In this document: in pieces, positions 22,957 to 40,636 of the stretch | How positions within the stretch are numbered: the stretch's first letter is position 1 | Layout: each line of letters begins with the position of its first letter | IMG/VR virus record: IMGVR_UViG_3300020055_000001 | Location: 1-43,686 of that record | DNA from: a virus | DNA: 43,686 bases | Direction: 5' to 3' (one strand) | The notes under the pieces: model-generated | Seen by the model: the letters and a program-made list of their open reading frames with translations, nothing else | Database searches by the model: none | Told to the model about the DNA's origin: nothing | Program-made: the position numbers and the translations under genes

Positions 22957-22983
22957 ACTGATCTCCTTTCAGAGGCTCATCAG

Positions 22984-23019
22984 CACCGTCATCAACGGTG
23001 GACACCCCCGAAGGGGTGT
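22984..23019 (-). terminator. Tandem hairpins with one UUCG loop after the first leftward gene
   Basis: ACACCCC/GGGGTGT (23002-23019) closes on TTCG with a C-G pair on the - strand; immediately after it CACCGT/ACGGTG (22984-23000) forms a second stem. They lie between the 70-aa and 87-aa genes and would attenuate or process the leftward transcript. Confidence 0.7.
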
Positions 23020-23026
23020 TTCGCCT

Positions 23027-37708: not shown

Positions 37709-38917
37709 ATGGTTGATATCAACAGAATTGACCTAGCCGCCCTTCAACAACTGCAAGCCGATCTGGATCGCCAGACGAGCACTCCGCAGGGGCGAAATGA
37801 ACTTGACTCATTCCTTGCGGCGAACTCATCGGGGTATTACCAGAGTGTTCAGGAGGCGATACCCCAGCCACCGCCACGGCAGAACGACGACCCACCGCCA
37901 GCGCCCACGGTCACAGGCACTTACCAGAAGAGAATCCTTGGCGGCTACCTAGTCACGATGGAGCGCCTGTCAAATGGGACAGAGCGCGAGATTTACCGTG
38001 AGCGTTCTCAGTCTGCCGGTGATGCAGTCAACCTGATGTTCCAGAACCTTGGCCTTGGTCAAGGTCTCATCGACAGTATTAACGCCAGCATCAAGAGTTT
38101 GTACGCTAACTTCCTTGACCCGTCCGAGGCACAGATCTTGAACGAGATCTACACCTCTGACGCTTACAAGCAACGCTTCAAGGGCAATGAGATTATTCGT
38201 CAACGGTTGGCTAATGGTCAAGGTCGCCCAGGCGACCGCATGTTGACACCCGCTCAGTACATCGAGCAGGAACGCCAGTACCGGGAAATCCTGCAATCCG
38301 CTGATATGCCTGGTGGCTTCTACGACTCACCTGATGATTTCACAAATCTGATCGGCAACAGCATCAGCGTTGCTGAGTTCCGCAATCGAGTTGACACGGC
38401 ATACGCGGCGCTCAACGAGGCAGATGACTTCTTGAAGGAGCAGTTATCTACATACTATGGATTGACGACGGGCGAGATGGTTTCGTACTTGTTGGACCCG
38501 GCAAGGGCGACCCCGATTTTGAATCAGAGGCAAACCAACAATCCGTATGGACTGAACTCGTACAGAGAATTGCAGCGGCAGTACGAGACAGCCGAGGTGG
38601 GCGCTGCAAGCGAGCGGCTTGGCGGGAAAGATATATCCAGGGGATTCGCTGAAGAGTTTGTTGATGCTGGCAAGGCTGATAAGGCTGAGCAGGCATTCTC
38701 TACGGCAGTTGCGATGGAAGGCGATGTCACTCGCCTTGGCAAGTTGTACGGCGATGACACGATGAATTATCAGGGTATCGCTCGTGAGGCTGCTTCGTTA
38801 ACTGGTGGCGCTGCCATAGGCAAGCGTCGTCGTAAGTTCGCCAGTAAAGAGCGAGCACAGTTCAAGAAGGAAAGTGCTCTCGGGCGAGGTTCCTTGTCCA
38901 AGAGAACAGACGTTTAA
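37709..38917 (+). CDS. 402-aa virion protein, last of the internal-protein set
   Basis: N-terminal helix, a Pro-rich linker near 50-68 (P-Q-P-P-P-R-Q-N-D-D-P-P-P-A-P), then a long helical body (G-L-G-Q-G-L-I-D-S-I-N-A-S-I-K-S-L) and a basic C-terminus (G-K-R-R-R-K-F-A-S-K-E-R). The basic end could contact packaged DNA. No family was recognised. Confidence 0.65.
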   Translation: MVDINRIDLAALQQLQADLDRQTSTPQGRNELDSFLAANSSGYYQSVQEAIPQPPPRQNDDPPPAPTVTGTYQKRILGGYLVTMERLSNGTEREIYRERSQSAGDAVNLMFQNLGLGQGLIDSINASIKSLYANFLDPSEAQILNEIYTSDAYKQRFKGNEIIRQRLANGQGRPGDRMLTPAQYIEQERQYREILQSADMPGGFYDSPDDFTNLIGNSISVAEFRNRVDTAYAALNEADDFLKEQLSTYYGLTTGEMVSYLLDPARATPILNQRQTNNPYGLNSYRELQRQYETAEVGAASERLGGKDISRGFAEEFVDAGKADKAEQAFSTAVAMEGDVTRLGKLYGDDTMNYQGIAREAASLTGGAAIGKRRRKFASKERAQFKKESALGRGSLSKRTDV

Positions 38918-38924
38918 TACGTCG

Positions 38925-39003
38925 GGGCATGACAGGTTAGAAGGAAAACGTAAAGCATCGCTCTACAACTTCCTTAACTCCCGTTCGATTCGGGACATGT
39001 CCA
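38925..39003 (+). ncRNA. tRNA-like structured RNA with long arm and no D-arm
   Basis: Acceptor-like stem: GGGCATG (38925-38931) pairs with CATGTCC (38996-39002), 7 bp with one G-U, then an unpaired A. T-arm: TCCCG/CGGGA (38979-38995) around loop TTCGATT, which fits the TTCRANY consensus and joins the acceptor stem with no gap, as in tRNA. Between them is one long imperfect hairpin (38936-38978): GTT/AAC, AAGGAA/TTCCTT, GTA/TAC, AGC/GCT, with a symmetric AAC/AAC internal loop and triloop ATC. No canonical D-arm or anticodon loop is present. It lies in the untranslated gap before the scaffold gene. Confidence 0.5.
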
Positions 39004-39133
39004 CCCATAGCAGGATCGGTCGGCCCCTGCGTGAGTAGTAGTCCGATAGTCGCTACAGCCATTCGCGGTAACCCCCTTGACGCGATGTGGGTAGTGCAAC
39101 CCGAAGAAGGGCATACACAGAAAGGGTGTACCG
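39004..39133 (+). other. Structured untranslated leader of the scaffold/capsid genes
   Basis: 130 bases with no gene. Possible hairpins: GCAGG/CCTGC (39010-39030), GTAG/CTAC (39036-39056), CATTCGCG/CGCGATG (39060-39087, one bulge) and GGGT/ACCC (39089-39102). With the tRNA-like element before it, the whole 200-base gap looks like folded RNA. The ATG of the scaffold gene follows at 39134, with AAAGGGTG upstream. Confidence 0.4.
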
Positions 39134-39604
39134 ATGGCCCAATACGAGAATGAATACGATGAAGAGTCGATGTCCGGCTCTGATCTGATTAAGCACCTTC
39201 GCAAGCAGATCAAGGATCTGTCTTCAACGCTCGATGAGCGTGACGATCAACTCGATGAGTTGTACGCGGAGGTTAGGTTCAACGACCTAGCAGCAGCACT
39301 CGAAGAGTCTGGCGTAAGTCCAGCACTTGCACAGTATGTGCCGGATGAGGTTGAGGATATGGATGACCTCTACGACTGGCTTGACGATAACGCTGAGATA
39401 TTCGGCATTGAGGCTGTCGATGACGAAGGACAGGATTATGAAGAGGAGCAATCCTTAATTGATCCGGCAGTCGTTCGTGCCGCAGAAGATATGGCTCGGT
39501 TAACGGACGGTGGGATTGACCCCACCGTTGGCACATCTGTCGAGGACTTGATTAATTCAGCGCAAAGTCCCGAAGAGTTGCAAGCCATTCTACGCGGTCA
39601 GTAA
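39134..39604 (+). CDS. Capsid scaffolding protein
   Basis: 156 aa, strongly acidic. A coiled-coil-like N-terminal half (L-I-K-H-L-R-K-Q-I-K-D-L-S-S-T-L-D-E-R-D-D-Q-L-D-E-L-Y) is followed by acidic segments and a final short helix (P-E-E-L-Q-A-I-L-R-G-Q). Charge, coiled coil and place directly before the capsid gene are those of phage scaffolding proteins that template the prohead and are then removed. Confidence 0.8.
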   Translation: MAQYENEYDEESMSGSDLIKHLRKQIKDLSSTLDERDDQLDELYAEVRFNDLAAALEESGVSPALAQYVPDEVEDMDDLYDWLDDNAEIFGIEAVDDEGQDYEEEQSLIDPAVVRAAEDMARLTDGGIDPTVGTSVEDLINSAQSPEELQAILRGQ

Positions 39605-39637: not shown

Positions 39638-40636
39638 ATGGCTAACAACCCAATCGGTACCACGAGTCACACTCATACCGCTGACTCGACCAGTACCACC
39701 ACGATGGGGCACTTGGTTGTCACCGCCTACGACAAATTCGTTGAGATGGCCCTTCGCTCGGAACCCATGTTCCGTAAATTCGCCGATAAGAAGCCGGTTG
39801 ATGTTACATCGCCGGGTTCTACTGTCGTTTTCCAACTGCATAACGACATTGCGCGGGTTACTGCGGCTCTCAACGAGACTCAGGACATTACCTCTACTGC
39901 GATGGAGAACACCAACAAGGTTGCTGTTACCGTCAATGAATATGGTAATGCCGTAACGACCACGGAGCGTTTGTCTTTGGAGGCTATCTCCAAGGTGGAC
40001 CCAGCCGTGGCCGACATACTCGCGTTTAATCAACGCGACAGCCTTGACGCTCTGGTGTGGGCAGTCATGGTTGGTGCTCAGACAGCATTCACCAACTCTG
40101 CCGGGGCTTCAAGTACCCCGGCTCTGCCTGGTGAGAACCTGTCTGGCGGCACGCCTGGAACCATCACCTCGGCTTCCATTCGGAAGGCGGTCAGCAAGTT
40201 GCGCGGCGCTAACGTCCAGCCCCGCGAAGGTTCCTACTTCATGGGCTTCATGCACCCAGATGTTTCTTTCGATCTTCGGAGCGAAGCAAACACCCAGGGT
40301 AATGACCAATGGCGTGCGCCTCACATCTACAACGACACCGGAACCGGAGCGATCTGGGACGGCGAAGTTGGAGTGTATGAGGGAGTCAAGTGGGTAGAGA
40401 CTCCGCGTGCAGAATCCCAGTCGGGTTCTGGCGCGAACAAGATCTACGACACCTTGATTATCGGCAAGCAGGCGCTTGTCGAAGCGGTTCAGTACGAACC
40501 GAAGACGATTGTAGCGCCGGACGTTGACAAGTTGCGTCGTTTCCGCACGGTGGGCTGGAAAGCCTTCCTCGGCTGGAACACGTTCCGCAACGAAGCGCGT
40601 TACAGCATCAAGGTCAAGAGCAGCATCGCTGCCTAG
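39638..40636 (+). CDS. Major capsid protein
   Basis: 332 aa, after a strong AAAGGAGGCG binding site. The T-H-T-A-D-S-T-S-T-T-T-M-G-H-L N-terminus, the F-x-x-x-A-L-R-S-E-P-M-F-R-K-F-A-D motif, and G-S-T-V-V-F-Q-L match the N4 gp56-like capsid family (HK97-type fold) as I know it. Position after the scaffold gene and the strong binding site support the call. It is followed by a UUCG-loop hairpin, which would favour high capsid mRNA levels. Confidence 0.85.
   Translation: MANNPIGTTSHTHTADSTSTTTMGHLVVTAYDKFVEMALRSEPMFRKFADKKPVDVTSPGSTVVFQLHNDIARVTAALNETQDITSTAMENTNKVAVTVNEYGNAVTTTERLSLEAISKVDPAVADILAFNQRDSLDALVWAVMVGAQTAFTNSAGASSTPALPGENLSGGTPGTITSASIRKAVSKLRGANVQPREGSYFMGFMHPDVSFDLRSEANTQGNDQWRAPHIYNDTGTGAIWDGEVGVYEGVKWVETPRAESQSGSGANKIYDTLIIGKQALVEAVQYEPKTIVAPDVDKLRRFRTVGWKAFLGWNTFRNEARYSIKVKSSIAA

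Follow-up and report, generated by a model that had tools for sequence, protein, structure and literature searches.

The closest described counterpart of the RNA reported here is that of the Mycobacterium phage DS6A (tmID 11587), which is phage-encoded, amounts to hardly anything beyond the tRNA-like domain (TLD) of tmRNA and has no tag frame. It is the sole phage TLD-only tmRNA named in PMC4131195 and PMC11915505, both of which cite Mao et al. 2009. According to these papers, E. coli tmRNA is strongly inhibited by a DS6A-like TLD-only RNA, chargeable or not, perhaps through titration of SmpB. The jakobid tag-less mitochondrial tmRNAs (RF02544) and the Mallomonadaceae plastid forms of about 65 bp have likewise kept the TLD and lost the message-like domain; they differ from the RNA described here in that the mitochondrial genes are usually permuted, while ours is not, and a rescue role is presumed for them (PMC11915505). 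The standard one-piece tmRNA (RF00023) shares with our family an acceptor stem with G3·U70, A73, a stemless D region with GG, a long helix in the place of the anticodon arm and a T-arm, but the family lacks its message-like domain, tag reading frame and pseudoknot ring, and its members measure about 75-97 nt compared with 340-420 nt for phage tmRNAs. The combination of G3·U70 and A73 is the alanine identity of both tRNA-Ala and tmRNA, and in tmRNA the place of the anticodon arm is occupied by SmpB.

We analysed a window of viral DNA (the whole stretch of 43,686 nt) for which a preliminary description had proposed a tRNA-like RNA in the late operon. The element was confirmed at positions 38925-39003 of the plus strand, from the acceptor stem to the discriminator A73. 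Folding, comparison with relatives and covariation all supported the 7-bp acceptor stem, in which GGGCATG (38925-38931) pairs with CATGTCC (38996-39002) through a single G·U wobble, 3·70, formed by G3 at 38927 and U70 at 39000. The same evidence supported the T-arm TCCCG-TTCGATT-CGGGA (38979-38995; loop TTCGATT at 38984-38990), whose full 5-bp stem directly abuts the acceptor stem. The 47 nt that separate the acceptor 5' strand from the T-arm (38932-38978) comprise an unpaired D region of 9 nt, ACAGGTTAG (38932-38940), and an imperfect hairpin (38941-38975) in the place of the anticodon arm, which corresponds to the P2 position of tmRNA. In alignments of relatives and in the alignment to a covariance model of the family (R1), GG at 38935-38936 of the D region aligned with the GG of the tmRNA D-loop. 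Folding of the middle segments of 35 relatives showed that the hairpin itself is retained while its sequence is highly variable. The acceptor-like stem, the gapless junction with the T-arm and the hairpin replacing the anticodon arm had all been described correctly; the unpaired A reported after the T-arm is right for the discriminator A73 at 39003 and wrong for position 38995, which closes the T-stem as its fifth pair (T49-A65).

The acceptor, hairpin and T-arm structure was returned by RNAfold with a z-score of -3.6, one of 200 shuffled sequences being equally stable. A strict descriptor of the acceptor and T-arm, with a chance expectation of 0.0125 matches per strand by first-order Markov resampling, gave one match in the window, which was exactly the 38925-39003 element. 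ARAGORN predicted neither a tRNA nor a tmRNA in the window, and Rfam gave no match to the element even at E<=10. The D-stem, anticodon stem and 7-nt anticodon loop of canonical tRNAs are missing from it, and its loop is unconserved.

We then gathered about 250 loci by searching with the capsid and with one DNA pattern, and tabulated 35 distinct tRNA-like RNAs, four of which come from cultured Streptomyces phages. Counts for the acceptor and T-arm were made on a gap-free core alignment, because an initial MAFFT alignment covering every member had shifted the acceptor by one column in four to five sequences. Among the 31 distinct cores, changes on both sides were seen in 8 of the 12 stem pairs and in 83 cells; 99.2% of the cells were paired, a value that is biased since the collecting descriptor for most members requires both stems to be paired. 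Covariation was 0.639 compared with 0.131±0.019 for shuffled alignments and at most 0.125 for slid ones. Pairing of both stems across related phages is therefore maintained through compensatory change, and a reading of the region as coding spacer was rejected. These results also bear on the possibility, raised in the preliminary description as a relic tRNA, that the element is what is left of a tRNA gene in an ancient tRNA array, degenerate and without function. Such arrays do occur at the same locus in Manuelvirus phages, but the compensatory changes, the fixed G3·U70 and A73 and the Rfam tmRNA matches of related RNAs make this reading highly improbable, and the covariation refutes it.

The kinship with tmRNA was examined with R1, which was built from nine members with the window clade excluded. 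On the window, R1 scored the element at 50.2 bits (E=1.5e-10), the next best match reaching 12.9 bits. Across the loci, TLD-only RNAs scored 37-96 bits, ordinary array tRNAs at most 27 bits and full-size phage tmRNAs 26-29 bits. The threshold of the Rfam tmRNA model (RF00023; 47 bits) was passed by the RNAs of BRock (64.5 bits), LuckySocke (57.1 bits), pSt2308 (52.5 bits) and L152 (50.6 bits), the last of which sits in the window's own type of capsid locus, while L171 (41.5 bits, E=8.5e-14) and Alone3 (36.8 bits, E=8.2e-12) fell below it. The message-like domain is absent from all members that passed; in pSt2308 (E=2.7e-20, model positions 1-374), 12 nt replace 304 middle positions of the model. 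Signatures of tmRNA were found in L171 (GGGGCTGAACGG), L155 (GGATTCGAC) and L162 (GGTATCGAC), and the D-region hallmark GGNUUCGAC or a near form of it in L155, L162, pSt2308 and LuckySocke. Weak matches to the tmRNA_permuted model were dismissed as chance, and the tRNA-Ile that ARAGORN called in L100 turned out to be nothing but the TLD-like element, whose hairpin loop happens to contain GAT.

The window RNA has the 7-bp acceptor, G3·U70 and A73 of RF00023, together with a D region that forms no stem, a long helix after it in the place of the anticodon arm and a T-arm with a TTCRANY loop; the message-like domain, tag frame and pseudoknots are absent, just the 47-nt segment lying between the acceptor and the T-arm. 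The hallmark GGNUUCGAC is absent from its D region, and both Rfam and ARAGORN, to which the preliminary description had pointed, left it unmatched while Rfam tmRNA matches were obtained for family members, so that its kinship rests on the family. Because of the R1 match and the Rfam matches of its kin, it belongs with the DS6A type, a tmRNA tRNA-like domain with no tag frame. The element is very probably the TLD of a tmRNA and a member of a TLD-only tmRNA family. The earlier proposal, in which a phage-encoded mimic of tRNA built like tmRNA lies in the late operon ahead of scaffold and capsid genes, was thus borne out, although the identity as the tmRNA tRNA-like domain had been missed. DS6A is a single RNA, whereas we found about 35 distinct RNAs, most of them at a fixed capsid-gene locus, and many of them lack GGNUUCGAC and are missed by Rfam and ARAGORN.

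Comparison of the 35 tabulated RNAs at the alanine identity positions showed that 34 have G·U as pair 3·70 and the remaining one has G-C, and that all 35 have A73 and C74. Outside this pair, G·U was seen just once in the acceptor and T-stem (420 cells), and pairs 4-69, 5-68 and 6-67 vary freely while G3·U70 stays. The collecting descriptor set no condition on a G·U at 3·70 or on A73; the DNA pattern search required U70 and A73, and members obtained from capsid homology alone (for example the window, L005, L007, L009 and L075) likewise have G3·U70 and A73. Since a single mutation would convert G3·U70 to G-C or A-U, its conservation argues for selection on alanylation.

The best explanation, which we place just on the probable side, is that the RNA acts as an alanylated TLD-only decoy interfering with the SmpB/tmRNA rescue system of the host. 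Once it is transcribed, host RNase P would release its 5' end from the late transcript, 3'-processing enzymes would trim its 3' end, and the processed RNA would gain CCA. Host AlaRS would charge it with alanine via G3·U70 and A73, and the charged RNA would bind EF-Tu and host SmpB and rival host tmRNA for SmpB and stalled ribosomes. As the RNA has no tag template, trans-translation would be blocked or diverted late in infection. The SmpB used would be that of the host, because no phage SmpB was found in the 14 relatives examined. The inhibition reported for the DS6A-like RNA was independent of alanine charging, so the strict conservation of G3·U70 suggests more than SmpB titration.

The main rival to the decoy is a tagless rescue factor, in which the alanylated RNA, via SmpB and EF-Tu, would take nascent chains from stalled ribosomes, whose tag-free release would aid the phage, a role of the kind suggested for tag-less mitochondrial tmRNAs. 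Selection on the alanine identity, which would be superfluous for mere SmpB titration, is in its favour, as is the persistence of frame-less mitochondrial tmRNAs alongside SmpB (PMC11915505). We nevertheless consider it rather unlikely, since the normal route of ribosome release is unavailable without a stop-codon template and the sole reported experiment on a similar RNA gave inhibition (PMC4131195).

The locus offers a further comparison. On the plus strand, the element is preceded by a gene of PHROG 8424 (37709-38917; function unassigned) and followed by a putative scaffold gene of PHROG 7813 (39134-39604; function by position) and the major capsid gene of PHROG 1357 (39638-40636). The nearest annotated cultured relatives of the capsid are the Streptomyces Manuelvirus phages (40-43% identity), of which Kumquat and Manuel have 19-21 tRNA genes in the same gap, ending just ahead of the same type of leader and upstream of the capsid genes; these are canonical tRNAs bearing anticodons, in contrast to the RNA of the window. 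In many phages the stretch from the stop of the upstream gene to the scaffold gene holds the leader alone (about 140 nt), and others add a tRNA-like RNA 5' of it. Ordinary tRNAs intervene between the TLD-only RNA and the leader in L130, L132 and L164, which separates the two elements, and a tRNA-Tyr occupies the position of the TLD-only RNA in L142.

This arrangement is relevant to another proposal of the preliminary description, a processing signal in late mRNA, by which RNase P and 3' cuts would determine where the scaffold-capsid message begins, with no role in trans. The placement of the RNA between the upstream stop codon and a conserved leader, which it abuts, and the Manuelvirus tRNA arrays ending right before that leader are compatible with such cleavage as a possible side effect. 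However, neither G3·U70 nor a tmRNA-type D region is required by RNases P and Z, the RNA lies inside tRNA clusters in Streptomyces phages, and in many relatives the leader occurs without it. Processing by itself leaves the constancy of G3·U70 and A73, the D region of tmRNA type and the tRNAs intervening before the leader unaccounted for, and as the whole function we regard it as distinctly unlikely.

The leader itself (39004-39133, plus strand) is a distinct structured element of the scaffold gene, found in phages both with and without the TLD-only RNA and matching no known family in Rfam. Its covariation over 20 phages was 0.563, compared with 0.202±0.021 for shuffled and at most 0.119 for slid alignments. 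The fold supported by this covariation contains P1 (39010-39014/39026-39030), an H-type pseudoknot (39019-39023/39043-39047), P3 (about 39049-39056/39091-39095) and a hairpin with a C-rich loop. Judged by eye, this loop may pair with the Shine-Dalgarno sequence (CCCCC at 39072 with the Shine-Dalgarno-like AAAGGG at 39121 in the window; CCTAG with CTAGG in Manuel), which makes the leader a candidate translational control element for the capsid assembly genes.

On the capsid tree (a quick tree with some long branches), the TLD-only RNA was found on both main branches, with at least seven gains or losses, and its history reads as one of repeated loss. Several relatives (L119, L128, L146, L147 and L166) have lost it or retain a degenerate form, so it is not essential; nothing was left at the TLD position in L119 and L165. 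Upstream of the leader, L128, L146, L147 and L166 have shrunken two-hairpin stems with TCACGA-like loops and without G3·U70 and the T-loop, which may be decayed TLDs or another element. A DNA similarity search of the region among cultured phages gave no match, and a capsid search of bacterial genome contigs gave no relative and hence no provirus or host clue. A reading of the element as a phage attachment site that contains a host tRNA or tmRNA 3' end is hardly conceivable. LilSpotty (L274) does have a tmRNA 3' end beside a tyrosine integrase (18 bits with R1), but at the window locus both halves are present and co-vary, among structural genes and with no integrase adjacent, and this reading was refuted there.

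Judged from their sequences, these RNAs form a large, overlooked phage family of TLD-only tmRNAs. A BLAST search with L171 led to unannotated RNAs of 77-78 nt in the Streptomyces phages pSt2308, LuckySocke, BRock, Alone3 and GiJojo. Whether actinobacterial tailed phages have repeatedly kept stripped-down tmRNAs as RNA anti-rescue or tag-free-rescue factors, many of them capsid-adjacent and made late, and most of them missed below the limits of the finders, is to us an evenly balanced proposition. The family goes beyond the oddity of DS6A in being large and covarying, in its apparent selection for alanylation, in its fixed place near capsid genes and in its presence in cultivable Streptomyces phages as well. 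These cultivable phages make the subversion of bacterial ribosome rescue by phage RNA directly testable, together with the use of a message-less charged tRNA-like RNA late in infection and the question of whether trans-translation limits phage output.

Several other RNA genes were noted. Unannotated TLD-only tmRNAs of five cultured Streptomyces phages (pSt2308, LuckySocke, BRock, Alone3 and GiJojo) lie at L266:451-528, L271:301-378, L272:277-354, in L273 and at L275:301-378; in GiJojo, the RNA is overlapped by an annotated hypothetical protein gene (44). The sequence (G/T)AAAGCCGCAYG..CGGA recurs in L266, L271, L272, L273, L155 and L140 as the core of the cap that takes the place of the message-like domain, and is common to Streptomyces phages and capsid-locus viruses. 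Full-size tmRNA genes are unannotated in Mycobacterium phage MrMagoo and Gordonia phage GMA2 (L267:189-529 and L269:135-543), an ORF being annotated within that of GMA2. Finally, the window contains a type II hammerhead ribozyme (RF02276, 43.9 bits) at 22967-23026 of the minus strand, between two small minus-strand genes and shortly before the terminase region.
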